Of a stretch of 64,000 nt of DNA, positions 10,501-63,099 are shown one piece after another (position 1 is the stretch's first letter; the number at the start of each line of letters is the position of its first letter). The notes below the pieces were generated by a model. The model had not been told where the DNA came from. It searched no databases and saw only the letters and a list, made by a program, of their open reading frames with translations. The position numbers and the translations under genes are program-made. The stretch lies in contig NC_036450.1 of the NCBI RefSeq assembly GCF_002775205.1, forward strand, positions 26,128,288-26,192,287, given 5' to 3'. The DNA comes from Xiphophorus maculatus (lineage: Eukaryota > Chordata > Actinopteri > Cyprinodontiformes > Poeciliidae).

Positions 10501-13500
10501 AAGAGAGACGCAAACACCCCCGAATGAAATGCAGCAAATAAAAAGAGAGACGCAAACACCCCCGAATGAAATGCAGCAAATAAAAAGAGAGACGCAAACA
10601 CCCCCGAATGAAATGCAGCAAATAAAAAGAGAGACGCAAACACCCCCGAATGAAATGCAGCAAATAAAAAGTGAGACGCAAACACCCCCGAATGAAATGC
10701 AGCAAATAAAAAGTGTTGAAAACGGAAGTGCTCCAGACCACTAGGGGGAGTCAAAGAAAATAGTATTCATTTCTATGGGACCAGATGCAAGATTCAGAGA
10801 AAGAAATTTGAAAGAAAGTAAAGGTATCTCTCTGAATCTTGCATCTGGAAAGTGTGATTATTGTGAGAAGTCTGAAACAATAGAGCATGTTATTTTAGAG
10901 TGTTGTAAGTATGAAGAAGAGAGAAGATGCATGCTGAGAGAGTGTGTAGGTATTAAAGAAAGGTTTAATTTAATAGAATTTTTGAGGAGAGATTTCGGGA
11001 GTAGACATATTCAAATAATTATTCGGTATCTTAAAAAAACAAAGCTATTTCATAGGATATGAGTAGAGCAAGTTGGGTGTGAATGTGTAAAGAATATCAA
11101 AGAGGGGTATATAAAGTTATAAGCAAGTTGGATAATATAAGCAGGTGTGTATGTGTGGGGGTATGTTTAATCAGGAGTTAATGGAGGGAAAAGGTAGAAA
11201 GTGAAAGTTTATAGACCATCTCGAACCACACTCCATACTGGTAAGTGGCGGTAATGCTACTGTAAGTTTGTTGCCAACCGCCAATAAATACCAAGAAGAA
11301 GAAGAAGAAAAATCTTGCATCTGGTCCCATAGAAATGAATACTATTTTCTTTGACTCCCCCTAGTGGTCTGGAGCACTTCCGTTTTCAACACTTTTTATT
11401 TGCTGCATTTCATTCGGGGGTGTTTGCGTCTCTCTTTTTGTTTGCTGCATTTCATTCGGGGGTGTTTGCGTCTCTCTTTTTGTTTGCTGCATTTCATTCG
11501 GGGGTGTTTGCGTCTCTCTTTTTATTTGCTGCATTTCATTCGGGGGTGTCTTCTTTTTTGTTTGCATGTTTTCTCTTTTGCTGCGCATTTGCACCTGTCG
11601 GCCACCGTACAGAACAGCCCCACAGACACAATCAAATGTGTTGGATAAGCTGAATTTGAACCCAGGTGAACAAGATAAAACACATTTATTGGAACATTTA
11701 GCATAGTGTCATAATGAGAATGAACTTACTTTCTGCAGTAAACTTAAAGACTGAATTGCTTCCTGCGTCTCCGACAAAAACACTTCCATCCTTAGTTACG
11801 ACAATGTCATGAGGCATTTTAAACTCCTGTAGAAAGGAAAACACAAAAGTAACCATGTTATTAACATACTGTACCTTTCAAAAGTATTCACACCTTTGTC
11901 ACATTTGTCACTTTATTTTCACAAACTTCAATGAATTTTAGTGGGATTTTACGTGATAGATAACCATACAGTAATGCATGATTGTGAAGGCGAAGAAAAA
12001 TTAGATTGTTTTGACTTTTATTTAGAACTAAAAAACTGAGAGATGAACTTATTTTCTAACAATATTTCAACCCAGCCACTAACGATGAATGTTACAGCGT
12101 TTGAACTCCCAAACATCAGTGGAGAAATTGAATTAAAGGTGACCCTATTATGCTTTCTTGAACAGGTCAGGATAGATCTGTGGGTGATACAAAACATGTT
12201 CATAACATTTTTTGCACAAAATCATTCTTACAAAATGAGATTCCAGTCTGCTCTGCTATGTTTCAGAATGAGTTGTTTTAGGGCCTCTGTTACTTTAAAA
12301 TCCAAATAAGCTGCTTCTGGCCACGCTCAACATTTACACCTTAAAATGACATATGCGCAAGTATACAACTATACATCTTTGAAAAGCAGAAGTGGAGCCT
12401 CCTACACAACCAACAAACATGCAGCAAGTGGTTTTTGGATGGGAGGTCAAAAACACTTGTCTTTTCCAGCAGCCATTGTACGGCGCATACAGTGGTAAAA
12501 CCAACTGACCGAAAGTGATGGAGCTTGACAGGGGTTGCTAGGTAACAGGCCGGGCGCCGTTACCTGCTAGGTGAGGGACAGTACCTGCTGATATGCGACG
12601 TTAGATTCAGAAGGTTTTTGAAACGACTCATTTTTCAGACACAGAAAAACATCAACTTGCTGCCAAAAACTGGCTGGGTGTTTTTAAACACTTTGGCTGT
12701 TTTTAGAAGCAGCTGAGACTCAAATGAAAGTACAAAACATACAAAATGTGAATTTTGTATGAAACATTCCCTTTAAAGAAAGCACCAACTTCCACATCAG
12801 CATTTCCTCAAATAGGAAAAGAAAGAAAAACACTCAGAGCTTTTTTTCCTGAGCTTTAAAAAGATAAAATATTTTTAAGTGTTTGTGTTCTGAGATTCAA
12901 AATAAATTGATCACAACTGTACAAGATTGCTGATTATTCACTAATTCTTAGTTTGAAAGGAGCAGAAGCTTTAAGATACAAACAGTCTTTAGTTCTTCAG
13001 CTTTGATGAGGGATGATTTTCATTACATCATGATTAAAACATTACATACCAAAAACGTTGATTTTAAATAATAACCTTGCCTCCTCTCTTAAGTTCTCCA
13101 CAACAGGAAAATCCAACAAGACATCAGTATCAATTACATCATCACATCTGCAAAATTATTATTTTTAAAAAGCCAACTTGACTGCATTAAACTGATTAAA
13201 CAATCTGGCATGAAATTACAATTGCCCATCCTAATGTAAGGATCTTTTATGGCAAACCTTTATGAGAGTTTCTAAGTGAGTTTCTAGTGTCAATAAGATA
13301 TACAACTCATAGAGGAATCCAGAAATGGATTTTAAAAAAGTCACAAATATCTAATAATGAAGTTCCGGCTACCACTTTTGTTTCTTCTCTAGTAAGCATC
13401 GGTTTTTAGGGAAAGATCCGTCAGTGAATGCCAGCGTGTTTACCTTCTGGGTGGGGCTGAAGGAATCCAGAATTTGTTTGGTTGAATAATCTAGAACAAA

Positions 13501-16350
13501 CCCTCTGAGTGGAGCTGAGTGGTAGGGCGAGTCTCCGTTCACTGCAAAGATCAGGCCGTCTTCAGGGCGGAGAAGACAGGAAGGAGATTCATTAAAAACA
13601 ACTAAAATGACACATATTCACAATTTAAAAAACCCTCAACAAAAGATGTTGAAACTAAATCATCTGATGTCTGAAATGAAGAAGGATATGAACAAAACCT
13701 AACTTTGGACCAACAGTGCCAGTGTACTCACTTCCAGCAGGGCTGTAGGTGATGGCAAACACTTCTCCTCCAAACTCTTCGTTCTTTATCTCTTTGACAA
13801 ACTCGCCGGTCTCAGCGATGAAGCACTGGATTCGGCCGTTTTCCCTGTCAGCCACACACACTTCCTTCCTTTCAGGAAGGAGAACCAAGCTGTGGGGGAT
13901 CCGGAACGGCGTGCGCCTCCTTCTGTCTGACGAGCCTTTACCCAGAACGTAGAGATGAGAAGGTGAATTTCTGATCCATCAGTGTTAGTGATGTGTAACC
14001 ACAGTGAATTATACTGTCATTGTTGCTCTGACTGCACAGAAACTGGGTTCCTGAAGAATAAGTTTGGCTACATTGATTAAATTTGCACTCTGATATTTGC
14101 CACTAAAGTGTAAACTGAGGAATACCTTGACGTTTCATGAATTTCCTGAACCAAAAACAATTGGTTTCATTACAATGCTTAGGAATAAAACTAAAACCTC
14201 TAGGTTTTAGGGCTTTAACACTCCAAGTATTTATGTGTACTTTGCGCTGGCTACCTGCTCCCCACTGAGTTAAGTATGTGCCATCGGCAGCAAACTTCAG
14301 GATCCTGGCGTTGCAGTAGCCGTCAGACACAAAGACGTTCCTGGTTTCAGGGTCGACGGCCACGTCCGTCGGCTGGCAGAAGTGCTCGGTGTCGCTACCC
14401 GGAGTGAAAGCCTCTCCCAGGACCAGCAGGGTTCTGTCCCTGCCGTCACCGCTCACTTTTAACACCTGAGGAACAGCAACGCACAAAACAGCTGAAGGAG
14501 ACTTCACTGCCACTGTCAGGGTGGGAATTTATCCTATTGTTTATCAGTTACCGTGATAAATCTCTTATCATGCTAAGAATTTTGACTGATCGCTGCCACA
14601 ATAAATTGCCTGGCCTCATACTGTGGGGAACTTACAAAAGCATGCTGAGATGGGCAAAAAGTTGGTCGCATTTTATGGATTTTTTCCTTTTTTTGCAGCT
14701 TTTCTGTCTGTAGAGTGAAGCTATGACTGAACATCACTTCAATCACAGCCCAAAAACTGAAATACCGCTCTTAACACATTTTTAATGAAGAACAACTGAT
14801 CACTCCAGACATTAAATGGTGCATTTTTATCACTAAACAGAACTACGTTACGCTTTCAGGGTTTGCATACATAATCATGTCAAATTTATTCTTCTGATAG
14901 CAAAACTATTTTCACACAAAAACAGTACATTTTTTGTTTAGTATTGCCCATTATTATTGCATGCTTTTTTTTCTAATTCAGGATTATGCCCTACTATGTA
15001 TCGGTCCAACACATAACAGCCAAATACTGAAGTTTGTTTTTGACAAAATGTGAAAAATGTTGAAGAGGTCTGAACACTTCATTTGTGCCGAATTCTTCAA
15101 AAACACAGTTTATCTTTAAAAAATAAAAGATAGCAAAATATCATTTCATTTTGAGAAACAAAAGCAATTTTGAAGGTGTAACTTTTATCTCAGACACACA
15201 CGGACAAGAACATGTCAGTTTTTATCACCACTTGTTTCTAGGTTAGCTTGATGCTACTACAAACTGTGGGTTTGTGTAAAGGCTACGTCGCTCCAGTGTG
15301 GTTAGCGCTCGCGCTCCAGCTCACCTGATGTAAAGCCACATCAGTCACCCAGTAGTTATTCTCCTGGTCTGTCGTTATTCCATGAGGCAAATAAAACCTG
15401 CAAGAACAGAAAACGATCTGAAGTTAATAAAAACAGACCCAACTCTGCAGGGCTTCAAATCGTATCCCAGCATTATAACCCTTACATTTATAACCAGGAA
15501 ACATTTTCTCACACACTCACATGTTCCGGCCTGAAGCCTTCAGGATTCTGCCGTTGGCCGGGTCCACAACCAGGATAGTAGACTGCTGGATGGGCCCCAG
15601 GGACCGCTGCTGGTACCGAGCCTGGCTGTTGAAAGAACTAAGCAAACACACAAGAGAGAACATTTACTGTGCGTAACCTTGGAAACTGCAGCTCCGGCGA
15701 GGAGCTGTGCCTTGAAGGCGGAGCTAGGTCCATCCAGGTGTTTTTGGACAGCTAAATGGTTGCCATGGAGATTAAAGGATTTCTCAAACATGCATGAAAG
15801 AATCAAGGCAACACTACAGGTATGTCTTTGATGAGGAATTAACATTATAACATGATGTAAAGACCTAAAACATCTATTTGACATAATACTGCCCCTTTAA
15901 GCTGAGCAGAAAGGGCTGGGCGTCTCACATGTTGATGTTAGAAGGATTTCTTAGCTGCAGATGAATACTTTGCTACAAATGATCAAATCTACACCAAAGT
16001 AAAGTTGTTGTTGTATTTGGAGCTCAAATGAAGCAAATGTGCTTCATTTGTAAGAATGTGCAAAAACTGGAGATGAAAAAGCTGCATGTGAGATCTCCAA
16101 ATAATTTCTTAGTAGTAGCGGTTTTGATGAAAACAACAGACATTAAAGTGCTTATGCAACATTTGTTAACTACATAACTATGTGAAAAGTGAAAGCAACC
16201 CACTCTGCCCCCCAGTGGTGGTCGCCTCTGTGAAAAATGACCAGGTTGGAATCAGAGTCCAGGGCGAGTCCTGACACCTGGCCCAGCTGAAGAGAACTCT
16301 GCGGCCATGCTGACACCTGCTCCAAATGAGAATCTGCAACCACACCATGA

Positions 16351-32158: not shown

Positions 32159-33631
<1,473 letters not shown>

Positions 33632-35811: not shown

Positions 35812-38800
35812 TCATGTTTTGGGATGTTGCTGACTGGCAGTGCGGCCAGGCAAAGTCTCTCTGTAAACTTGTGGAGTGATGCTGAGGAACTGGCTTCTAG
35901 AGTGGTACGCCTGCTTTTGGCACAGCCCCATCCGACTGAACAGCATCAGGATGTCTCTGTGAAACGCCTTGGTCAAGATGGCGTAAAAAAACGGGTGTGC
36001 ACAAGAGTTCAGTGGGTAGAAGACCACAAGCAGCACCTGCGGAGAAAATACAAGTTTGTTATTATTTTAATAAAAATTAAAAAAATCTGAATTTAAACTA
36101 TAGTGGACCCCTAGTAGTTATGTGGACTAGGAAACACAAGTGTGCACAAATAGCTGTAGTCCATGAACACTTCAGACTGGAGATCTCCTCTAAAAACGTT
36201 CAATATGAAATGTGAGTATTCACCTCCTTGGATGTTTTGTCCTTTTTATTGCTTTTACAAATCAATAATGAGTAATAGTGATGTTCTAGCACCAAATATA
36301 CCTCAACATACATTAACACACACGATAGCACAAAAGCTGGTGTCATGGTGGTTGACACTAGCTTGGTGCAAGCTAGTGTCAACCATTAGCTAATGCTAGC
36401 AGAACTCCCAAGCTGCTCTTGGGGGTTCAGCCAATCAGTGCTAACGAAAATAAATGGAGGTTTTGGATTGGGTCCTTTGCAAACGTCAGACAATAGCAGC
36501 ATTGCTTCTAGGTATTACAGCGTCCCAAGCTGCATTTTCTTTAGAATATTGCAGATATGCTCTATGGAAAAATAATCAGCAGATAGCCAGATTTTCCCTG
36601 AATAGCTTGGAGTCACATTCCAGAGAGAAATCAAATAAGTTGATCAACGAATACCAAACAGCCAATAGACAGGGGTCCACTGTCCAGAGAAAAATGCAAA
36701 CCTTAGAATCTGTGATGGTCATCAGTGGCTGGTGGAACACTGCCGCCAAGCCATAGAAACAAATAGGAGCCAGACACAGGAAGTTGGTAAAGATAAGAAC
36801 AGCCATCCGCTTGGCCATGCTGGTGTCACATCGGCTGGAATCATGCTGGGGATTGTGCACCATGCAGTAGATGTGCAGGTAACACAGACATACTACTATA
36901 AAAGCCATTATGTTTAGAATTAGAACAGAAACTATATAAAACTGGGCAACGACTGTCTCGGTGTCCATGGGCAGACAAATGCTCACTCTCTGGTACGTGT
37001 TCACACCAAGCACTGGCAAAAAGGCCACTGTCCCACAAAGTAGCCATCCACTGAGCATCAGCACGGCCGCATGCCGTAGCCTCATCTGTCTGTCCGGCCT
37101 CATGGCGTTGAAGATCGCTTGCCAGCGCTGGAAGCTGATTGCAGTCAACGTGTACACAGATAATTCACTGGCAAACAGCGATAAAATCCCTGCCAGCTGA
37201 CAGCCACTTCCTGTTTGCCAGGAAATAGCATAATGGTAGTAGTTAGAATGCGTGTAGTAATCGACTGACGCTATCAGCAGCAAGTACATCCCCATACAGC
37301 TGTCGGCAAAAGCCAGGTGGCCCAAAAGGAAACGGGTGACAGACAGCTTCTGTTGAGATGTCAACAGGATGAAGAGCACCAGCGAGTTAGCGGAGATGGC
37401 TAACAAGCTAACGACCCAGACCAACACCCGCAGGAAGCCCTGGCTCATCACATCCTCACAGGGGTTCAGCGCATCAGGCAGAGGCGTGCATAATGGTACA
37501 GTATCTTGGTGGAGATCATCACACGGAGCAAAGTCCAACTCTTCCCCTCGCTCCTCTGAGGATAAATACACAACAAACAAGCCCTCATCCTTAGCCTGTT
37601 CGTCCAGACACCGAATGCCAGGGTTGTTTAGATGGTAAGTTTGGGTCTGGGAGTTGTTTTTCAGATGGTGGGGCAGATCATTTCCCAGAACTGTAAAGGA
37701 TTCCTGCAGCTGTGCGACAGCAGCCCTGGTTTGGTTGCAGAAATGTTCCTCTCTGTTTGGAGAGACAAAACACAAGAATGTTTTTATTGTTGCAAACCAT
37801 CCTCAGGTGTCACGATATGGTTCACGTTCAGTCACATCTTATGAAAATGTCTGTCTGTCTGGATACTTCAGGTCAGTCACTAGCTACCTTTGCATTAACC
37901 GTAAAATTACGCAAATTGAAATTACAAAAATAAATTAGCTTAACAGAAACAAAGCAATTTTGAAAAGATATGTTTTTAATGAAACATTTTTGCGCTAGGA
38001 TGAGGTGGCTTTTCTGTCATAACGAATCACATGAGTCACGTGATAAACAACCGGATGTTACTAATGGTGAAAATGACAAAGAAGACAGGAAGTAGTTGGA
38101 GGATGATGATTTGTTTTAGGTTTTTTTTTTTTTTTTTCGGACAATGTGCAGCTGGCTCCACCAGAGCTCTCACAGCATCACAGTTCATAAAAAGTTGAGT
38201 CATTCCAATGATCTGAATCCATAGCTCTTCTGCAAAATGGCTGACTACAATTTCTCCAAAATGCTGCATTCAAAGCCGCTCCCAAGTAAGCAGGGCTAGT
38301 CAAGACGCCAACTTCTCCTCTGATTGGCTGGTAGATGTTTAGCACTATGGCTGAATTATGAATATATCCCAGCAACTGTTTACATCTTGTCATTGCCATG
38401 ATTTTTAATGACTTATCATGTGAACAAGATTATTGACATGTGATTTTAATCTCCACTCTTATTTAATAGAAACACTGCAAAGGTTTTTTTTGACATTTTA
38501 TCAGACAGATTTGTAATGGAAATGAAGCAATTGTTCCTATAAACTTTTATATTCATTAAAACATGTTACAATCCGAAACTTAGCTAATAGGTCCTCAAAA
38601 TCAAAAATCATGGTTGGTTGGCCAATTTAATCAACCCTAACGTCTCTTCAACCAATTTTAAACATCACTGTACCTTTTACTTTTTAAGCAGAAGGTAAAG
38701 TCATAAACAAGTCTTGTATCATTATTTATCTATAACAAATAATATTCTAACGTTGCAACTCGTGTCTTCACATGAACTTGTTGCATTGTGAGAACTGGAG

Positions 38801-41800
38801 TTGATTGGAATGTGAGGAACGTGGGAACCGTTTCCAGCACTTGTTGTTTTCTTACTCACCTTCTCCATCTCTTGAGCATTTTAAGGCCGCAGCAATGGCT
38901 TGCGAAGGTCATGTGAGCACTCTGCAAATGAAGAAAAGCACCAAAAGGAGGCAGAGCTTTGAGTGCCCATGTTTTACGAACTTGAAGGATCTCAATGCTG
39001 CTCATGCCCATTGAAGGCAGAGAGTGTACTTTGGTTTCTGAAAGGTCTCTGGAATGATAGAAGCAGAGATAAGAGTAAGGAATTCACTCACATTGGCATT
39101 TTATATTTAACTTAGACTTAAAACCATGCAATGATTTGATGTCAGAATTTTTATGTGAAAAAGCATTTGCCCCCTTTATCAAACACGTGCTAACATCAAA
39201 GATCAATGGAGTAAATTCAAAATGTAATTTTCGAACGATGATCTAACTTATTAATTGAAAATAGGCTATCGGAATCACAAGCACCCTTGATCAATCATGA
39301 ATTAAAAATAGTTTTATGGTTAATTTGGTTGAACTTATGTGATTATCCGCATTTTAATGTTTAGTTTCTTTAGCCACACTCAGGCTTGATTACTGCCTGA
39401 TTACAAAAACATTGAAACAGAAATAAAATATTTATAAAAGGAAATCATCAAGTCCTGATTTAAAGAATTATCATAACAGATAATAATTGCTACAAGGTTG
39501 ATAACATCTATCAATCTGGAAAAGTCATTTCTAAGACTTTGTGAGTCCAGCCAAGCACAACGAGTGTTATTATCCACAAACAGAGAAAACATGGAACAGT
39601 GGTGAACTTTCACTGAGGTCATCTAAAGAGCCCAGAGTGACATCTGAAGCGCTGCAGGCTGTACCTGCTTTAATAAAGCTCAGTGTTTATGATTCAACAC
39701 AAAAAAGAGAGACTGATGAAAAATCATATCCATGGGAAAGTTTCAGGATAAAGAAACCTGGTGAACAAAAAAAAGAAAACAAAGATCGACTTCACACCTT
39801 ACTGACTCAAAAAATGAGGCAATAAGGTGCCTTACAGTCTGGAGTCAAACTCATGTGACATGACTGTAAACAGGTCAATGATTCTAGAAGAGACATCCAA
39901 CCAGATGCAGTTTCAAATGAAATCATTTGAAATCTAAATCTGCTTGGGGAATTAATAACTTTGCCCTTGACTGTTGTTTAAACATTTTTGGTACAATTAA
40001 ATAAAGGGTAAACACACATACTGTATGTTCTATAAGTAAGTTGAGACAACATGAATCAACACACATTGAGTTATTAATAAACTTACAAGTGAGTGGGGCC
40101 AAGAATCACCCCATAAAATGCATATTCTGCGATATGTTCCAAATCCATATTCCTGTGAAGGTATCTGGAATTACAAAGAGAGAGTTTTTAAAAAGTGATC
40201 AATCAATTTTTTGTTTTTTCTTTTTGAAAGAGTTATGCCAACATTTCAGACAATGTGGTTTTAGCAGAAAAAACAGGGAGCTAATTTTTAAACATGTAAC
40301 ATGGGCTCCCAAAAAAAAAACTAAAATGGTGTGCTAATATAACAGTAATGACTTCTATATAGTGTTATTCCTTTGAGTTCTCAATATTTTAATATTTGTT
40401 TTATTATTAATTCAAAAGGCCTCACACTTCTTCCAGCTGGCTGCCATTGAACGCGTAGTCCTGGATCTCTGTCAAACCGTTTCCGTTAAGCATGCTGCGA
40501 GACAAAGAATGCTGTAGACATGTTGTGACACCAAAAACATCTCATAACTCTACGGTGATCCAGATAAATAATGAAATGCTCAAAGTCTCAATTACAGGGC
40601 CAACTAGCATGATGTAAACTTCACAGACAGCGACTACCAAGCTGTCCTACTTATGTAAATATGTGCTAAAAAACAGCGCTAGCCGGCAGCAAGCTGCAGC
40701 TAACTGGTTAGCATAGCAACCGATGACAGTGCATAAATGGTTTTCCTGTAACAGTTGTTTCTCCACCATTAGCTCATTGAGCAACGAGTACATGAGTTTG
40801 ATTGACAGAGCTAAGCCCCTCCTCCTGGCTCTTATTGGCTGTTTTTGGTCAGCAGTGGTGTGTTTCTTCAGACGGCAATAGCAGCTCAGGGAGGATGTGG
40901 AGGAGATTAGATTTTTTCACAGATTATTTGTCTCGGATTGCGCTGTCACAACAAGGTGATAGTTTGGAGAAATATGGAGAAAATATACATTTTTAGGAAA
41001 ATGACATACTGCAGCTTTAATCTGTCATGTTTTTCACTTACTGAATGGAATCACTGAAATAAATAAACGTTTTCTAAAATACCCAAATTAATTGAATGTG
41101 ACTGTGATGTTTGATGCTTAAAAGGGTTTGCTGTGCTCAAAGTGCCTAATTAGTTCAGGAAAATGACTGGAAATGACTAGTTTGCTATTTTTTAATTGCC
41201 TTAGCTGACTTCAACTAACTCCAACTTACACTGTCAAAGCGTTCTCAGATACTCCAGTGAAGGAGTTGGCAGGGATCACTCGTAGGAAGACATTTTCCAC
41301 TATTTCCCTGAATAAACAGACAAAATGACTAAAATTATTCACACCAGGTAAAACACGTTGAGGTTTCTCTTGACTAGCAAAGTTTGCTTACACCTCTAGA
41401 ATACATACAAAATGAAATCCTCCTGTCTTGACTGAATGTATTGTAAAACAGGAAATGATGTCAGACCCGTGTTGGTGATCCCACTGCAATGAGACACATC
41501 CAAGTCAGTAACTGCTGAATGGGAAAGTAATAAAACGTTTACAGTGGATCCTCACCTGTTATAGGTTAATATTTGAAGATTTTTCTGTAGAACATTAACT
41601 CTAAATTATTTTTGCCTATTTGTGAGTTTTTTCAGAGGACATATCTAAAATATCTGATAGAAAATGCATCTTGGGAATCTGAATCTAAATCTACTTGACA
41701 CTCTATTGGCTGGTGTTTACAAAGCAGCCAATCCAGGAGCACCATTAATTTTCCTTGCAACTGATTAGTCTAGTAGAGAAGGTGTCAAGTGTTCAAGGAT

Positions 41801-43736
41801 TCTAGTTATTTGCAGGAGGTTGTTGTTCCTAATCCCTTGAATTCCAGGGGAACACTGTAATCATAGGATTTTCATTTACTCTCTTAAAAAACAAATACTC
41901 TTAAACGCTAAACATATAAACAAAGACTTACAGATATTTTAAATTTGGAAGTTCCTTGAATGCCTCTGGATCAATGTATGACAGTGTTTTGATGCTGTGC
42001 AGCTCTCTGTGGGACACACAGACACAACCATCATGTGTACACACATCACATGCACACAAGCAGATCTGACACTAAGAACAAATGCTGTTTTTGGTCTTTC
42101 ATGCATTTTTGTCTTGAAAATAATCTTCTAATGTAGCTTATTTAACTGAATCCTTATGTGATACACTGGGGTCCAATGAGAAGTTATTGGTATTCAAATT
42201 AATTAACAAATGTTAATTTGTCAAATTAACATTTGTGACAATAAAGGAAGACAACTCAAGCTGTTTAAAGTTGACAGCTCACCTACATGTGCATGATGCT
42301 GGACAGATTGTAAAAAGAATGTCTCTCAAGAGATCTTAAGGCATTGTCATCAGAGATGTATCTGTAAAAAAAAAAGAAGCAAAAAAACAGAACCTTTATT
42401 ATTCACATAGTATTTTAACTGATTTGAAAAACAAAGCATTTATTTTTGCTTCTTGAGATAATAACTTGAGTGAACCAGAACGGTGTCTTGAGTAAATCCT
42501 GGTACAAAACATTATTCATCCAAACGCTCATGCAATGTTACTCTTGTTATTAACAGAAGTGAACTTTTGCTTCAGTAGCTCTTCAAGGTAGATTCATTTT
42601 ATCCACTCAGTTTTGCTCATATATGGTAAGGTAAGCTTTACTTATATGGCTCCTTCCACAGGATAAAACCACCAAGTGATTAAGAAACACAATCATCACA
42701 GAAAAATAAAACATCAAAACATCATATATATAATACCACCCATTTAATCCTGCCTTAAGATTTTCCAGGGAGGCCCCCTGGTGGCCCCCACTTTCAAAAA
42801 CCCTGTGTTCAACTGTTCTCTTTCTTTAATGCTTTTGTCTTTACTTTTGTCTCTCCATCTTTGTGTTGGCCAGACTGTCTTCACGCTGACTCACCACTGC
42901 AGCACACACAAGTCACCCCATCTTGAAGGCATCAGGCATCCAGAAAACTTATTCTGTCAAACCGTTTTGTTTATGTTTCACAGCAATGTAGGCCCTCAGG
43001 GCTCCCAACATGCACTGAAGCAATCCATGCAATGAACAGACAAAACGTGCATCCAGTTTAACATTTCTAACTGGCAGAAAAAGATTGTTTAGTTTAAAGA
43101 GCATGTATCAAACTCACGTATCACTGTTTCAGACATAAAGACAGAATTTTTTTTAAAGGGTCAAGACAAATTTTGTGAGATAAAAAACATAACAAGCAGT
43201 TGTTTTAGTTTAAACGGTTTAGCTAATAAATGGGATCATTTTCAGTTTCCTCAATGACATTAAAAGTTGCCTTGAGTTTCACTACAATTACAATAAACTA
43301 GCTTAGAGAGACTAGCTTACAAATAATAATTCGTAAGCTAGTTTTACACATTTCAGAGAAACATTAACGTTGATGAAAATAAAAATCTTACATGTGAGAA
43401 ATGTTGGGCAAACTAGCAAAAGTATTTTGAGGAATGAAAGCAAGCTTTGTCCTCACGAGCCACCTAAAACACAAGTAAGAAACGCATTAGTCATCACCAC
43501 TTGCTGACTGACATTTGAGTCAAAAACCTAATTACTTACACCTCCTGGAAGGACAAATGGAAAACAGGCACAAGTTCAACTCCAGTGCACGACACACGTT
43601 TGGTTTTCCAATCGCACTGGCAGCGGGGAGGACAGCCGTCCACAGGGAGAGACAGTCCGACGAGGAGGAGGATGACAGAAGGAGGCTTCAGGTCAGGCTT
43701 CATTGTGAATGTGGCGATGCAGGCAGAAGGCTTCAA
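35812..43736 (-). CDS. Divergent glycoprotein hormone receptor (FSHR/LHCGR/TSHR family)
   Basis: Leucine-rich-repeat GPCR. Exons: 43540-43736, 43392-43463, 42287-42361, 41932-42006, 41409-41483, 41230-41307, 40426-40494, 40087-40152, 38860-39048, 36702-37752, 35812-36036; all LRR exons are phase 2 and 66-78 nt, as in the family. Total 723 aa, or 712 from the second Met at 43703, which sits closer to the signal core PPSVILLLVGLSL. The Cys cap is CPPRCQCDW; the hinge has SHCC and ALNPCEDVM, then seven helices from ~405. Odd points: QRW instead of ERW (~507), TNF instead of TDF (~622), HPFFY instead of NPxxY (~663), no sulfotyrosine site before the hinge Cys, and an extra intron between helices 6 and 7. 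It is intact. It may be a duplicated LH-receptor type reported in teleosts, but I cannot assign a symbol. Confidence 0.88.
36101..36682. mobile_element. MITE filling an extra receptor intron
   Basis: Terminal inverted repeats AGTGGACCCCT (36102-36112) and AGGGGTCCACT (36671-36681) bound about 580 bp without coding capacity. Inner sequence AGCCAATAG near the right end matches CTATTGGCT in a related element at 41548-41862. It occupies most of the 665-nt intron between receptor exons 36702-37752 and 35812-36036. Confidence 0.7.
36349..36385. repeat. 16-bp-arm hairpin inside the MITE
   Basis: TGGTTGACACTAGCTT and its exact reverse complement with a GGTGC loop, centred in the element at 36101-36682. 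Confidence 0.85.
37985..38345. repeat. MITE-like repeat (family b), receptor intron
   Basis: Second copy of the family at 4525-4720, here longer, with TCACGTGATAAACAACCGG at the left and a CTCCTCTGATTGGCTGGTAG block near the right. Confidence 0.6.
39049..40086. other. Receptor intron, nothing recognised
   Basis: AT-rich; an ORF-like stretch at 39541-39825 has no family resemblance and no splice support. Confidence 0.5.
40690..41025. repeat. MITE, family a, receptor intron
   Basis: Contains GATTGACAGAGCTAAGCCCC, CTCCTCCTGGCTCTTATTGG and the end GACATACTGCAGCTTTAA shared with 51770-52255. Confidence 0.7.
41548..41862. mobile_element. MITE related to the one in the extra intron
   Basis: Ends TTACAGTGGATCCTC and GGGGAACACTGTAA are inverted repeats. 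CTATTGGCTGG / AGCCAATCC blocks inside resemble the element at 36101-36682. Confidence 0.6.
42206..42236. repeat. 15-bp-arm perfect palindrome
   Basis: ACAAATGTTAATTTG, one unpaired T, then the exact reverse complement; it lies in a receptor intron. AT-rich, probably a mutational foldback. Confidence 0.8.
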
Positions 43737-44440: not shown

Positions 44441-47400
44441 TCACATTCTGGTTTCTTCTGGTGGGAGGCTCATGTAGTCCTGAAGGACCTGCTGAAATGG
44501 CCTCCACTTCTTTATGGAGGCTTTGATGGCTAAAATCCATCTGGTAGAGCACAAACAAAACCGTCATAAAATCACTGAGGTTGCATGTCAGACATTGAAG
44601 CTGATCAGCAGGGGCTGATACTGCAGGCTGCATACTTTCTGAGGTGTATGCGAACATGTCATCCCCCCCCCCCTCCTCTCCCGCCCCCTGACATAAACTT
44701 GCACAACTCATTTTTAATTAAAGTATCAATAATATTAAATGTACATATATGTGAATAAATTGTTGCCCTCAGGGCAATTAAAGGAGAATGAAACAAAAAC
44801 AGGGCAGTATTTCATAACTTAATATAACTCATACCTAATTTAATCATTTAATTTAATATTCAGTCTGTTCTACAGAATAGATCTGCTCCAAACAGCACCT
44901 CTACTGGCTTATCACAGACTGAGTTATTCTGACTGTCAGACATGCGTCCTGCTGTTGAAGCCTGTACAGAGCATCAAAGAGCCAACTCCTTACCGTTTAT
45001 TTTCAGCTGAATTATCGGCACAGAAGTAAAACGTCTTGAACTCATCAGACAGAGGTTTCAGTTCAATTGTGGACTTTTTGGATCCATTGGCCTGCTCCCG
45101 CACCACGTAGCCCTGAAGGTAAATCCCACCTGAAAGCAGAGACAACATGGTGTTCTGATAAATATATTAGTAAATCATTTCAGAAATGAAAAATGTAATC
45201 TCTCTGAGGAAACAAGGACTAACAACTGACTGCTTATATCTTTATCAGATGTTTGGATTTTCGTAGCTAGTCAGATGGCTCAGTCAGTCACACACTGACC
45301 AGTTCCTCCAGGAAGTTGTGATGTTGTGATTGCACCCAATAACACAGATTGACTGACCATTCACAAAGTTTGCATGGACAGGCAACTTTCAGCAGTCACT
45401 TTCCACATCTGGTCACCTGGGTCAGATTATCTCATATCTCTGAAATAACCTTATCTATGATATGTTTTCCTTCTTTTCTGACCAATCACTGCAACTTGGA
45501 TGAATTTTGACCAATCCTTTTTTCCCCTTCTAATTGAACTTCCTGTTTTACAAACCTGCATGATGGAATCATGAGTGACACTGAAAAGTACCTCTTTTTT
45601 TGGCAAAAGCCATTCTGAGATGTTCTGTAGGATTTGCTTGTACTGTGTCTACAATTCATATTAATTTGAATGACCAATATGAAATTCTTATTTTGCACTT
45701 TGACCCCTCCTGATTTGATTTGTATTAGAGCTTACAAAAAAAATTGCAACTTTGACTTAAACCTTTTTGAAAAAGGCGATCAGTCAAAATAACTCATTTT
45801 GAGCTGCAATAATCACAAAAAGAAAAGAAAAAACAACACAACATCCTGGAGAGACTGATGCTAATTCATGACGGCCCCAGTCTCTGAAACTTGGTGTAAT
45901 GCACATTAATACATTCATTCTGCTTAAAGATATAGGAAGCAAATTATAATGTATAATAAAACAATTAAATATATGACAGCATTTAACACCAACACTACAT
46001 CTGCTGACAAGGCTTCAACAGCTTCACCTGGCACAGATTCCTACCATGTGAGTGGGTGGAGCGGATGCCGCTGTACAAGTAGAGACAAGCATCTTTCAGA
46101 ATGCAGTAGTGCTGGACCCACGTGTCTTTACTCCTGTCCAGTTTGTTGAGCAGTCCCAGACAGTCCGGGTTTTTCACAGCCAGCGGCGGCACGTTGGAGT
46201 TGTGTCTCGTGACGTCAACCCACACATGGTTCTGAAACAGAAAGAGTTTATGTAAAACATGATATTGTGATAAGTATAAACGTCAGAGAAATTTGCGATT
46301 CAAAAGCTTTAATAATAAAAACAAGGTGGTTTTTTTGACAGACTTTGGTGTACCTGTGTAATGGGATGAACAGCTCTTTCCATAGCTTCACACCATCTAG
46401 TCACAAAGGAATCAAGATCAAAACATTATTCAGTAACATATTGATGAAATATGAATGAAACTGAAACACGTTTCAGACTTAAATTCATGCTGCTTTAAAT
46501 TAGAGTCTGAAGAACAAACTTTATAAACCTATTTGATTTATTTGGTCCTACGCTACCTTTTCATTTCCTGATTGGAAGTGGCGCAGAGAGAGTACACCCG
46601 ACTGCCAAACTGAGGGCGACACTTGAAAACAAACGGCTTTCCCAGGGAATCATCCGGCCCCACCTCAGCGCCTTCCAGCTTCACTGAGGATAACGGCTGC
46701 CGCTTGCCTTCATCCTGGATTACAAATGGAGTCATGTTCATCAGAGGCATTTTATTTTTCTATAGACGTTCATCTTCAGAGCGAGCATTCCTCTGCCTAT
46801 ACTCACTCGTTTGTTTTTGAAGTAGTACAGACAGCAGTCGTGTGTGAGAACAAACCACCTCTTCCTCCAGCCTTTGATTAGACCAGACTGGGTTCGCTTA
46901 TGGAGGTAACCACGGCATGGTGGTCTGGGTGTGTTAGGACCCCGAGCAATGTCTGATCCAATGGTCAATGTTAGAATATCTGGACCTACAATAAATATTA
47001 CAACTTTGATCAGTGTCAAGTTTCAGCTTAACAGCTGTGACAAAATAATAGCTTAACTAAGGTCATGCTTTGCTGTGCAGACGCTTTGTCTGCACTGATG
47101 AAGATTCACTCCCCTTAATACATAGATAGATATTTAGATAAATATTTATTTTTCGGTCATTTTTGACCTGTTTATACACAAGAAAAAAAAGAAAAAAGCA
47201 CATACTGCTGAATAACAATAAAACATCAGAAAAAGAAAGACAGAAACAGTTAAACAATATTCAATTTCCTGTCAATGGCAAGAACACCAAGTGTAGTCTG
47301 AAAAAAGTGTAAGTAGAAGCACAAGCTTATTACACCTTCACTTTGTTACACATAAAGCATCATCAAACTCAAAGGAGCAGAATCTTTTCAGAATGTCTCA

Positions 47401-50400
47401 AATGTTTCTGTGTTTAACCTGACAGAACTTCTTACCTTGTCTGGCTAAATTAGCTGCCTCCGAATGAGGAATGCTGGTAACGTCAATTCCATTAACAGCA
47501 AGGACGTAGTCGCCCACTATTAGCCCGGCTTCCTCTGCTGCTCCATCTGAAAGCAAACAGATCACATGTATGATCCTACAAAGAAAAAAATAAACAGAGC
47601 CACACAATATCCTGTGGACAAGAAAATTATATTCTGTCAATTGGTAAGTTTTAGTTTAGAAAATGAATGAGCCATTGTAATAACATTGACTTGGTTTAAT
47701 TATCTCAAAACACAAAACTACATGTTTGTTCACTTTTCTGCAGAAGAAATACACTCAACATTAGCGTACCCAAAATCTGGAAAAGATTCAGTTTACATTT
47801 GACTAATCACTTCTCTATGAGTTGTTCTGCTAACTCAAAAAAATTAATCACTTAGAATTACTCATCACTTACTTGTGTCAACTTCAGTTACAACAATGGG
47901 TTTGGAAAACTGTATTCGAAAGCCCCAGGGATATTCTCCTGCCCCTTTGCTGATTCGAACAGTCCTCTCTCGAACTGGGAAGAGAATTTAGACAAAACAT
48001 TCAAACCCGTCCTGCATTCATGATACTCAAAGCATTTTGTTTCAACAAAGACCATTGTAAAAACTCCAGAATAAATAAGTTTTCTTATAGAGTTTCAACA
48101 TCAGCTTACTTGAGACAGCACGCGTTCTGACTGTGAGATTGGGACCGATGGCGCCTGAGTTTATGTTGTCTCCTTGGTAAATCCACGCTGAAGAGTGGAA
48201 TGTCTCTGTGTAAAACCCCCTGTCTTCATTGTCTTGAACTGTCACATTTGTAGAAAGCGTATCCTCTGATACTAGAAAAAGACGTATGAAATGTCAGCAC
48301 TAAATGCAGTAAAGAACTAAAACAGACAATGTGGGCCTGTTGAGTTGTAGTAACAGTGGATTGGCCACCTTACCACTAAGCACAATACAGAGAGACAACC
48401 TCTCAGCTTCAGTCAAGATGTGTGTGTTGTTAATTTCATTAAAATAATATCCTGTTGCGGTGCTATAATGGAGCCCATATTTTGGTACCAGAACTAGGTG
48501 GATGCAGCACGATGGGCTTGAGCTCAGTTCAAATGTGAATAATTGTTCCAGTGAGTCTCTTTTAACCCTGTGATGAAATAGCAATCTGTGAAAGCCCAGT
48601 TCAGTACGATTTTTTCAGTTGCACTTAATCTAAATTCTGTGATAGTGATCAGTCCAGTCCACTGTCCTCCACTGGTCTAAGAACAGGTTGCAGGTGTAAC
48701 TGTTCTGAGACCAAGACCAAGACATCCTTCTCCCCACAATCCCAACATGATCCCAGGTCAGATGGGAAATATGGTTACCTTCAGCACTTTCTGCCCAAAG
48801 GTCACCTTCCTTGGGAACATGTACATAAAAACCTCAAGAATGAGGACCTTAGGAAGATCCTGATTAGATGTAAGAACCAGATAAACGGTCAACTTTCAAA
48901 GTGGAGGAGAAGCTGCTTTACTCCAGGCTCTTCCTGGATGATGGAGGCCATCTCCCAGTTTCCAACCGCCTACATCCTGGATCTTGTTCTTTTCATCATG
49001 ATCCATTTCTTTTTACCACAGGTGACAGTGAAAAATAAATTGCTTGAAGACATTAAATAGTACACGAGTACATAATTATGTGTGTTTTTACTAAGGTTGA
49101 AAGAGCATGAACAAAATTCCTTCTGGTCAAGACCGAAGAAGCTAGTGAAGTTATTTCACAAAACCTGCAGAAGTTTCGGGAAGACCCTGTAAGTCCCTTC
49201 TATTGCAGCATTTGTGTAGTCAGACCACAAGAAAAACATTTTGCTTGGAAGATATGTGAAGAACATGTTGCATGAAATCCCAAACCAGCTCGCACTTATA
49301 GAAGAGAGAACAAATGTCTCCATTCTTGTGAAGTAAGTACAGACTTTTGACTTTTTAGCTCAACTCTTTCTTGACCATGACAGACCAAATGACTGCAGAC
49401 AGGGTCTCAAACTATCTGTCCATCTCTTGTCTCATACTACCGTCACTTGGGAACAAAATTCTTGAATTCCTCCATGTCATTCAAAGACAAAGGCCCACTA
49501 TGAAAGGAGCATGTTACCATTTTCTATTAGAAATGTGCGACTTCAGTCTTTGAGGCTCAGTTTAATCCAATTATAACTATTAGTTACCTGATTCCTCTGT
49601 GATGTCGCTGGTAATTGAACTTCCACCAGCAGAGCTCCACTGCTTGCTCTCCTTGAAGAGTTTTCTCTTCCTGGCCCAGTGGTCTGTGCCGTCTCTGTCT
49701 TTGTGAGATCCAGGCTTCAGATGCTCTCTAGCCTCGGAGTTAGCTGGAAATAGTCATAACGGGTCACGCCAGATCAGTTTTATTCTGGACAGTTTTAGTC
49801 GACTGATAAAAAAAGATGAAACTGCAACTTACATCTGTACACAGCGGGTTTCTCTGCCTTGCCGACTTTAACAGGCAGCTCCTTTGCATGGAGCACTACG
49901 TCTATAGATGGTTTTACAACACATAATAAACCGTCTGCTGCTTTGTTGGTGTCTTCTGAATGCCTTTTTTTAGCCGCCTCCTTATCATTCAGCTCATCAG
50001 TAACAAGAAGAAGTGGAAGGCTACTAACTGACTTTTCAGTTGGGTTGGACTCGATTTCCATGGCAACATTGTGTTTTTTTAGGGAATCCATGTATGGCTC
50101 CTCAGATGTTGACCTGGACAGGACGTTGTGCTGAACAGCATCAACATGTGCCGTCATGACTGAACATTCTGATAAAGTGGAATCAGAATTGCTTTGCGTG
50201 GAACTTCTGTCATCTTTGTCCTTGGCAAATACCTTGGGAATCGTCTGTAGGATTTGTTCCTCTGAACCACTGCAGGATGGAGGGATGACTTGTATAGCAA
50301 GGCCTCCTTGAATAATCTCTTCCACATAAAGTTTTGGGCTCATTTCTCTGTCAGGCTCCATGCCTGTAAGTTCTCCGGTAGTTTCTGAACTGTCTGAGCA

Positions 50401-53400
50401 AGTTTTAGAACTCTCTCTGCTTTGTGAAGAAAATTTTTTTCTCACATATGTAGAAAATATGTCATCCAACTGTTTGCTTTTTTCCAGCCTCTCAGTTTGG
50501 AAAGGAAGAGAGCACATGACGAACGAAGAGACTGATTCTTGGTACGGGAGCAGAACATCCTCATGAATCAGTTCTTGATCAAACGACGTCCCAGGGAACG
50601 TCTGCCGTCTTTTCCTCATTAACAGACACTCCTTGCGCTCCACGGTGGCGATGCTGTTGTTTCTGATCCAGGACTTTCTCTTCTGGCAGTAGATGAAATC
50701 TTTGACAAAGCTGGACCTGTTGGTAGACACAGAGGGCCGAATGGACATCGGCTCGTAGTTATCTGATTCTGACAGCTGATCAAAGGAACGGGTCATATCT
50801 TCTCTTTCCTTCTCCAGTGAAGAAAATGGGGATGCTAATTCTGCTGATGCTCCTATCCTAAAGGAAGCTAGGTCATTTGTCAGGTCTTCTAAAGTGCTGC
50901 TGCATTTAATGTCATCAAAGACTCGTTGTGTTGAGATGTGGAAGAAACCATCCCTGTTCAAGGCGTCTTGCTTCTTCCCCTGAATATTATCATCTAGCAG
51001 TGATGGTGGACCCAATAAATGTTTAGCCAGGTTTTGTTGGATGTAATCACTGCAACAACGACAGTAACTCGGATCTCCACGTACATTTGATGAGCAGACT
51101 GATCTTGACTCACTTTGTTCCTTTGTTTGTTCATTTATGCTGCCAAACGTAAACCTATAATTTATATCCTGGTTGTGACTGGTCACGTGTTTTGGGAGCT
51201 GCTCCAAAGGCTGATGGTCAGGGATTTGCATCCCCTCATATTCCTGGTTAATAATGACCTCAGAAGCCTTGTTTTCATTCATAAAAACACAAGTGGTCTT
51301 AATGCCATAAGGATTCCCCTGTCGAACTTCTTGGATTTCCACTTTCACGTGTGACCCAGTGCAGCTGACATTGAAGATGTTTGTTACGGGTGTAGATGAG
51401 TTGGTTGGATCGTCATTTAAAGACTCATGTGACTGTTGGATTTTCACAGTTTGGGACTTTTCCATGTCATTTTTGGACACTGATGTTACTATCTTCACTC
51501 CTTGCTCTTCAAGCTCCGTTGTTTTTGTGTACACACTCCTTTGTTCCTGAAATGCTGCCATGTTAAAGTCTTGTTTACATCTTTTTTGGCTGGGTGGAGT
51601 GTGATCATGTTGGTGATCTTCAAATCCAATCAGAACATTTTCTTTTTGAAGAGAGTTTTCTTCATGCTTTCCAGCTAGGTCCTTCTTATCGCTGACAGTT
51701 GTACTGCGGCTCTGGTTTTGAAAGAGAAAGGCGGAGGAACTTTCTGAAATAAAAGAAAAGATATGTTTGCTAATTTTATAAATTCTTCTGCTTTCTCCCA
51801 GTGCTGGCTAGAAACAACCAATCAGAGCCAGGAGGCGGATCTTAAGGCTGTGAATCACAACATGAAGCACTGCTCTTACCACCTTCATCTCCCCCACTTA
51901 CTGTCTAGTACGCTGCAGCTAGCAGATCCTGTAGTGAATTATAAGGCTAAATGGAGGTGGATAAACAGTTTTCTTGTACCAGCAAGTCATTTTTCTGCTA
52001 TTAGCATATTTAGTAGCGAGTATATGAGCATGATTAACAGTGCTAAGCCCCTCCTCCTGGCTCCAATTGGTTATTTTTAGTTGGGAGCGGTGCATTTCTT
52101 CAGGCAGCAATAGCAGCTGAATAGGAGGAAGTGGAGGAGGAGGAGGTCCATCTGCTCACACATCTGTCTCATAACATACTGTCACGACACAATGACTGTT
52201 TATATGTAAAACAACAAAACATACTCTTTATAAGAGTTACATACTGCAGCTTTAAACACTCAGACTAGATAGCATGAACAGCTTCTCCAGAAGAATGGGA
52301 CTGACTACCTGCAGGAAATACAGATAATCTGTAGGAAAATTGATTTCAGTTCAAAAATTCTAAATAACTTTATTAATCCCAAAGGGAAATTAGTAACTGA
52401 TATTAATTTTAAAAAAAAAAGCTCAAATAATTATTGCAGATGATGATGTGGGCATAAAGGATCTCATGTAGCGGTCTGTATTACAACGAATTTGAACACT
52501 GTCTTCTGACTGAAGACAGTGGTTTTCTATGGCAGTATCATGAAGACGACGCTCAGGGCTGTTCATAAGTTTCTTGATTTTATTTAACATTCTTCTTGGA
52601 ATCATCATCTCCAGAGGTTCCAGTTGATGTGTGAAGGGATCGCCCAAAGTAAGCTACTGAAAACCTTTTATAGAGCTCTCACTGATACAATATTAGCTGA
52701 ATAACCACTGTGTTGGTCAATGATGAAAAATTGTAAGATAATACATTGATACATTGTATTTAAATACAATGTATCTTCAAATACATTGATTAGAACCACA
52801 AGTTTGGGGTTGTAACATAAAGACATGTTAGAAACGTTTAAGGGGTGTGAATACTTTTCCACTGTAAGTTCATGACTTTTAAGTGTAAATGTACTTATTG
52901 TCGTATTCTAAAACTCATGAAACTTAAAAAATGTAAAGAGAAAACAGATTTGTGATCACATTGAATCATTTCTACTAGAGAGTTGTTGGCTATGTATCAA
53001 CATTATGAGGTTAATAGATTAAAACTTCCATTTATGTCAATTTTATGGGTTTTATAACTGGGAATTTGGGAGTTAAAAATGTCCAAATTTGATCAATGTC
53101 TCAATATGTTACTATGAAGTTGAACTGAGAATTTTTTTGTTTAGAATTTGTTCAGTTGACATTCATTTAACACAGAAGAATTTTTGTATTTCTACAATGT
53201 CAGAAAATCTGTGTCTATAACATCTGGTTCATGATCTTCACATATTTGGAACTACAGGCAATTTACAGCAAAACTCTGAACCTGCTGCTCAGCAGGATGT
53301 ATTGAGAGCCAATAAGAGCTCATGTTACTCCTTTCCAAGATGGAGGAAGTCCAAGTATGAGACTTTTCTGCTCAATTCAAAGCTTGCAGGTGCACAGAAA

Positions 53401-53512: not shown

Positions 53513-63099
<9,587 letters not shown>

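Follow-up and report, generated by a model that had tools for sequence, protein, structure and literature searches.

The receptor gene on the minus strand of the window (the whole 64-kb stretch of DNA that was analysed) is, as judged from its sequence, tshrb, the known teleost-specific second TSH receptor gene. The teleost TSHRb as such was already known; in this gene, four residues of the activation switch differ from those of the other receptors of the same genome and of TSHR, LHCGR, and FSHR. The reading that we favour is a genuine TSHRb whose switch has been re-tuned, probably damped, rather than a constitutively active or a decaying receptor, and we consider its chances about even.

An apparently intact gene of eleven exons

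The gene model for tshrb consists of the following features of the window:

43703-35812, minus strand: whole coding sequence, 11 exons, 2,151 bases, 716 residues plus stop
43540..43703, minus strand: exon 1, N-terminal cysteine box and, by eye, signal peptide; donor GTAAGT; the TSHR alignment starts at residue 23
43392..43463, minus strand: exon 2 (LRR), GT-AG, phase 2
42287..42361, minus strand: exon 3 (LRR), from the gene model
41932..42006, minus strand: exon 4 (LRR), from the gene model
41409..41483, minus strand: exon 5 (LRR), from the gene model
41230..41307, minus strand: exon 6 (LRR), from the gene model
40426..40494, minus strand: exon 7 (LRR), from the gene model
40087..40164, minus strand: exon 8 (LRR), from the gene model
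38860..39048, minus strand: exon 9, final LRRs and start of cysteine box 2 (FASHCC), from the gene model, with a match to an FSHR query
36702..37752, minus strand: exon 10, hinge, cysteine box 3, and TM1 to TM6; Pfam 7tm_1 at 1.3e-29 for the spliced protein
35812..36036, minus strand: exon 11, TM7, short cytoplasmic tail, and stop TGA; a split tenth exon is a published TSHRb mark

All 10 introns are of the GT-AG type, with phase 2 at the ends of exons 1 to 9 and phase 0 at the end of exon 10, and besides 7tm_1 the protein matches the Pfam domain LRR_8 (9.6e-17). Stops, frameshifts, and broken splice sites were looked for across the 716 codons and none were found; the frame thus has no mark of a pseudogene, and the original prediction that the gene is open and correctly spliced is borne out. 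In the LRR domain, 124 of the 260 aligned residues are identical to human TSHR (the PDB lists molecule names alone, and we take its TSHR, LHCGR, FSHR, and LGR4 chains to be human), and the six conserved hinge cysteines are kept. Taken with the intact frame, these features argue for constraint on tshrb until recently, rather than proving present function, and the gene apparently still encodes a full-length receptor.

An additional hinge cysteine, beyond the six conserved ones, is present at residue 340 (GIRCLDE), and sequons are located at residues 75, 97, 196, 298, and 324. A truncated TSHR-like transcript has been mentioned for sole (PMC4227674). The exon-10 donor of tshrb (AAG/GTTTGC) looks weak, by eye only; retention of intron 10 would extend the frame through the start of that intron (window 36576-36701, minus strand) by 42 codons up to a stop and would yield a receptor without TM7.

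The neighbourhood of tshrb in the window includes:

32159..33631, plus strand: kinase-like gene, probably POMK, of two open stretches (ORFs), with a kinase match on the second; outside the receptor gene
14106-14528, minus strand: NHL-repeat fragment (Pfam)
59134-59646, minus strand: DDE transposase fragment (Pfam)
62045-62440, plus strand: weak TB2/DP1 fragment, under the Pfam cut-off

The name POMK is our own reading of the sequence, and the three fragments are presumably PAM-like (NHL repeat), Tc1-like (DDE transposase), and REEP-like (TB2/DP1). A tandem repeat at 10358-10766 is open on both strands, with PPNEMQQIKRETQT units on the plus strand. The region 44993-51807 (minus strand) contains a weak PH match under the Pfam cut-off and, by eye, a PDZ-like piece, and a 670-residue open frame within it has no Pfam match. 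Both the Rfam scan (at gathering scores) and the tRNA scan were empty.

Identification as the teleost TSHRb

Among the PDB chains, TSHR matches the encoded protein best, with 681 bits, compared with 574 bits for LHCGR and 557 bits for FSHR. A protein search across the whole genome (704,300,149 bases in 101 contigs) found, in addition to tshrb on contig C8, which holds the window, tshra on C15, two lhcgr-like genes on C22, and an fshr-like gene, matched in several exons, on C10. An identity as FSHR or LHCGR was rejected, given the lower PDB scores and the presence of genes of those types on C10 and C22. The two lhcgr-like genes on C22 lie 345 kb apart, in agreement with the published finding that platyfish has two lhcgr genes and with the 350-kb spacing of the pair in tilapia (PMC4536197). 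In a ten-row tree, the LH and FSH receptors formed a clade that excludes tshrb (support 90/99, under the star of the tool), and tshrb, tshra, and TSHR formed an open fork. The end branch of tshrb was 0.72 long, versus 0 for tshra, and its nearest neighbours by path were tshra (0.8) and TSHR (0.93). Scans of viral and of bacterial and archaeal contigs yielded no relative.

The teleost TSHRb is a copy of TSHR that stems from the teleost genome duplication. Its published marks are a tenth exon that is split in derived teleosts, the absence of the LKNPQ and Y-(D/E)-Y motifs, the replacement of a key hinge Glu by Ala, an added N-glycosylation site in the hinge, a short tail, the lack of a negative charge at alignment position 262 (the start of LRR9), and a conserved translocated synteny (PMC4227674). 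Six sequence marks were tested on the window gene, and all six were present. The tenth exon is split into exons 10 and 11 by an intron at 36037-36701; LKNPQ and Y-(D/E)-Y are both absent from the hinge; the hinge reads PDALNPCED, versus PDEFNPCED in the fish's own tshra; an extra sequon is found in the hinge, and those close to LRR2, LRR6, and cysteine box 2 are retained; and the cytoplasmic tail, counted from GLC, is 38 residues long, versus 67 in tshra. Alignment position 446 was equated with Glu404 via reference 49 of the TSHRb study (PMC3531376 and PMC4227674, respectively), and since Ala at this place is also found in LHCGR and FSHR, it is a weak mark alone. The sequons were assigned to the named sites by alignment with TSHR, not by published numbering. 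The separate TSHRa gene on C15 has LKNPQ, YDY, PDEFNPCED, and an unsplit exon 10.

Taken together, the best match to TSHR, the marks, and the existence of a separate tshra identify the window gene, at the level of sequence, as tshrb. The original prediction of a glycoprotein hormone receptor was thus right, if incomplete. TSHRb is known as a fast-evolving duplicate, with a branch 3.1 times that of TSHRa, that was lost in several groups of teleosts and is possibly dispensable (PMC4227674), and this history is a natural setting for the switch changes.

Four altered residues in the activation switch

Direct reading of the codons located the four switch changes at the following positions of the window:

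37130-37128, minus strand: CAG, Q3.49 (E in the seven other receptors compared)
36785-36783, minus strand: AAC, N6.44 (D in the seven others)
36773-36771, minus strand: CTG, L6.48 (M in the seven others)
35997-35995, minus strand: CAC, H7.49 of the NPxxY motif (N in the seven others)

The seven receptors are TSHR, LHCGR, and FSHR (PDB rows) and tshra, fshr, and the two lhcgr of the same genome, and the Ballesteros-Weinstein labels are our own assignment, set from anchor residues. All four positions are invariant across TSHR, LHCGR, and FSHR. Q3.49, N6.44, and H7.49 had been predicted and proved real, encoded by CAG, AAC, and CAC on the minus strand, whereas the fourth change, M6.48 to L, had been missed. 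The span given for the changes, 36036..37752, is bounded exactly by the opening bases of exons 11 and 10, respectively, so that the H7.49 codon starts 39 bases outside it.

D2.50, L3.43, R3.50, D6.30, Y5.58, P7.50, and Y7.53 are all kept in tshrb. Of the ionic lock, R3.50 and D6.30 are retained and E3.49 alone is lost. Further alterations affect 7.40 (L to V), 3.32, 3.33, 6.52, and 7.52, and in the hinge activation unit two of the seven named members are Ala, at the places of Pro280 (FASHCC) and Glu404 (PDALNPC); at the first of these hinge sites the fish's own fshr likewise departs (YSSHCC).

At the switch positions, the other four receptors of the genome, tshra, fshr, and both lhcgr, have ERW, FTD, CMAP, and NP, so that E, D, M, and N are kept throughout. 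For a quantitative comparison, we used the 135 TM positions that are invariant in TSHR, LHCGR, and FSHR, comprising 30 switch positions and 105 others. Altogether, 27 of these are changed in tshrb, but only 6 in tshra, 16 and 20 in the two lhcgr, and 15 (of 134 covered) in fshr. At the 30 switch positions, tshrb has four changes and retains 26 residues, and each of the four paralogues has none. Pooling the paralogues gives 4/30 versus 0/120 (Fisher p=0.0014), which is a guide only, because the 30 positions were listed with the finding already known and do not count as independent sites; with the fastest paralogue as the sole reference, the comparison is only 4/30 versus 0/30. Within its own genome, the switch changes are thus specific to tshrb. 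Overall speed does not explain them: outside the switch, the faster lhcgr copy is changed nearly as often as tshrb (20 versus 23 of 105, p=0.73), and inside it has no change.

Within tshrb itself, enrichment of changes at the switch was tested across the 135 TM positions and was not found, with 4 of 30 switch positions and 23 of the remaining 105 changed (p=0.44). The switch of tshrb changes at about the rate of the rest; what sets it apart is that it has lost the extra protection seen in the other four receptors, rather than that change has been focused on it. At 19 of the 131 positions that are invariant in the seven other receptors tshrb differs, and these tshrb-only changes amount to 9/35 in TM6 and TM7 versus 10/96 elsewhere (p=0.046), a clustering too weak to rely on. 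The ratio dN/dS relative to the paralogues is uninformative because the synonymous sites are saturated: 58 of the 90 fourfold sites shared by tshrb and tshra differ, and NG86 yields no dS.

Candidate ligands

The genome contains two TSH-beta-like genes, both found as partial matches: one of the classical type on C20 and a divergent one on C1. On the basis of their motifs and of the glycosylation site described for TSH beta-b, we take them to be TSH beta-a and TSH beta-b, respectively. The first exon of the C1 gene (locus L036, G000:C1:16944500-16947500, minus strand) encodes three sequons (NHT, NCT, and NTT), versus one in the C20 gene. In the second exon, the C1 gene has RSCVPI, versus RSCTYD in the C20 gene, and an extra cysteine. 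One of the match rows of the C20 gene contains TAG. Possibly, the divergent C1 TSH beta is the partner of TSHRb and evolves fast along with it. TSH beta-b is described as having gained a second N-glycosylation site, and the activation of both receptors by both teleost TSHs is stated as unknown in the same source (PMC8522476). In medaka, which has two TSH receptor genes, the one named tshr2, which may be either paralogue, is active in folliculostellate cells, and these cells are proposed to pass day-length information on to gonadotropes (PMC10980775).

Predictions from known mutants

In models of TSHR, D6.44 contacts N7.49 and also N7.45, and the active state features a bond between N7.49 and D2.50 (PMC5136658). 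On the first of these contacts, the source differs between passages: it reports a weak contact at 3.8 Å in one place and, elsewhere, 4.6 Å with a possible bridge by water and without direct contact between D633 and N674, so that the picture of a D6.44-N7.49 pair is itself a model. Many substitutions at D6.44 are activating, namely, D633A (13.6-fold) and D633E (3.3-fold) in TSHR and D578 to G, Y, E, H, or Q in LHCGR (4.3- to 14.4-fold), and N674D, at 7.49, is strongly activating (11.3-fold) (PMC5136658). The notion that D6.44 is a classic site of activating mutations accordingly holds for many substitutions but transfers only weakly to D-to-N. LHCGR D578N was reportedly found not to be activating by Kosugi in 1996. 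For human TSHR, the basal cAMP was 1.10-fold for D633N, 1.22-fold for D633E, and 1.33-fold for D633Y, all significantly higher than the wild type. The assay reads all mutants low, and D633N was the mildest of them; older work quoted in this source gave about 1.3-fold with a near-normal TSH response, and a carrier of D633N was hyperthyroid (PMC13306117). Considering the low-reading assay, the significance, and the hyperthyroid carrier, D633N is mildly activating, not neutral.

The other altered positions pull in different directions. Judging from titles in the reference list of PMC5401882, activation needs a free carboxylate oxygen at 674 and, whether brought about by mutations or by hormone, depends on the Asn at 7.49; the His of tshrb has no such carboxylate oxygen. 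Human L665V, equivalent to L7.40V, is listed as silencing (0.3-fold; PMC5136658), and the published silencing positions that are changed in tshrb are 7.40, by the same residue, and 3.33, by another. N7.49 and L7.52 of TSHR, both changed in tshrb, are among the positions where mutation raises constitutive activity (PMC4422131), and activating mutants have been published at 3.32, 6.48, and 6.52, by residues other than those of tshrb (PMC5136658). Altogether, the changes in tshrb do not seem to point to strong constitutive activity; the sign of their net effect is not fixed, because activating sites are changed, N674D reaches 11.3-fold, and D633N exceeds the wild type.

Among the 15 of 19 papers listed in a literature search for N674H and N7.49H, N674H had a single match, a soybean paper, and N7.49H had none. 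In the passages of PMC4227674 covered here, the switch residues in TM3, TM6, and TM7 of TSHRb are not mentioned, and no description of the TSHRb switch changes was found in the literature searched, supplements aside. A single-sequence AlphaFold2 model of 285 residues of exon 10, without TM7, had a mean pLDDT of 47, too poor to use.

Discussion

The favoured reading, that tshrb is a real receptor with a re-tuned, probably damped switch, draws on its identity, the TSHRb marks, the 716 intact codons, and the 26 retained switch positions, with 0/30 changed in each paralogue. It draws as well on the mildness of D633N, on the silencing L665V, on the modelled D6.44-N7.49 and N7.49-D2.50 contacts, on the titled need for an oxygen at 674, and on the two TSH-beta-like genes of the genome. 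In the sequence, the polar pair of TM6 and TM7, D6.44/N7.49, is replaced by N6.44/H7.49, beside Q3.49, L6.48, and V7.40. R3.50-D6.30 would continue to hold the inactive state, together with a hydrogen bond between Asn and His that replaces the Asp-Asn one, and, if so, basal activity would stay low to normal. The active state, which involves N7.49-D2.50 in the TSHR models, may be weakened or may be reached via the imidazole of H7.49. The outcome would be a receptor that binds hormone and activates Gs in a damped or re-tuned manner, possibly serving local responses to TSH in tissues other than the thyroid. Counting against this reading, the switch of tshrb is no better protected than its other TM positions (4/30 versus 23/105), which fits relaxed selection, too.

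Relaxed selection, under which a dispensable duplicate would be slowly losing its function with the frame still open and the switch drifting because signalling became unimportant, is the less probable account, but a serious one. The published speed, frequent loss, and possible dispensability of TSHRb (PMC4227674) agree with it, as do the long branch of tshrb (0.72 versus 0 for tshra), the equal rates within and outside the switch, the alterations of the hinge activation unit, and the fact that strict conservation is seen in tshra alone (6/135 changed). Yet the 11-exon frame is open with GT-AG splice sites, the LRR identity to human TSHR and the hinge cysteines are maintained, 26 of the 30 switch positions are kept, and outside the switch tshrb has not changed more than an lhcgr copy. 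Constitutive activity, with basal cAMP lifted by loss of the restraints at D6.44, E3.49, and N7.49, was suggested by the original prediction, which spoke of altered basal signalling or coupling. Such an alteration is plausible in general, but raised basal activity is not the best guess and appears unlikely to us. Other D6.44 substitutions and N674D do activate human TSHR or LHCGR, D633N has a small but significant activating effect, N7.49 and L7.52 count among the listed activating sites, and, in inactive LHCGR and FSHR, R3.50 forms bridges with E3.49 as well as with D6.30 (PMC6281744). The very substitution found in tshrb at 6.44, however, is the mildest of the mutants in the human TSHR assay, LGR4 naturally has N6.44, D6.30 and R3.50 are retained, L7.40V is silencing, and the oxygen at the 7.49 side chain is, by title, needed for activation.

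This last requirement also bears on a further account, in which tshrb binds hormone but signals nothing and acts as a decoy or a dominant-negative partner of TSHRa. The lack of that oxygen in H7.49, the changes at the silencing positions 7.40 and 3.33, and the Ala residues at the places of Pro280 and Glu404 would be in line with a dead receptor, whereas R3.50, Y5.58, and Y7.53 are retained; we rate this account as unlikely, marginally more so than constitutive activity. That the switch codons are sequence or assembly errors is very improbable. A single assembly was used, and the loci L009 and L016 are the window's own contig, but the changes are separate single-codon changes inside a clean frame of 716 codons, and the differences at 19 of the 131 positions invariant in seven receptors are those expected for a fast-evolving gene.

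A bolder version of the re-tuned switch, which we consider a long shot, holds that Asn6.44-His7.49 replaces the Asp6.44-Asn7.49 lock and was fixed and selected in derived teleosts, alongside the fast-evolving second TSH beta. The imidazole next to D2.50 would then substitute for the conserved sodium and water site and would either abolish sodium sensitivity or make the receptor pH-sensitive. Teleosts would thereby have a second TSH channel, with an activation rule of its own, that acts locally in brain, pituitary, or gonad. If the switch is indeed re-tuned, tshrb would represent a natural combination of changes at residues that are mutated in human thyroid disease, and a few swaps against tshra could show how the lock between TM6 and TM7 is rebuilt.

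Comparison with known receptors

The window gene resembles the published teleost TSHRb in the split exon, the motif losses, the Ala, the sequon, the short tail, and the long branch (PMC4227674). From cysteine box 3 to the tail, tshrb shares 191 of 302 residues with the fish's own tshra and 187 of 302 with human TSHR, and the LRR-hinge-7TM layout is common to all three. In contrast to tshrb, TSHRa keeps E3.49, D6.44, M6.48, and N7.49 and has an unsplit exon 10 and a longer tail. Among human TSHR mutants, D633N and L665V are substitutions identical to those of tshrb, and N674D affects the same position; these are, however, single mutants, unlike the natural combination in tshrb.

Outside the glycoprotein hormone receptors, two LGR-type loci of the same genome, L014 (C1) and L015 (C4; best PDB match LGR4), have N6.44 (IFTN), and L014 has QCG in TM3 where others have ERS or ERW; both are distant, with 26% and 30% identity. 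LGR4-6 are not known to couple classically to Gs. The LGR4 PDB chain is like tshrb in having N at 6.44 (IFTN), whereas LGR4 and L015 differ from tshrb in having ERS at TM3 and in keeping N7.49.
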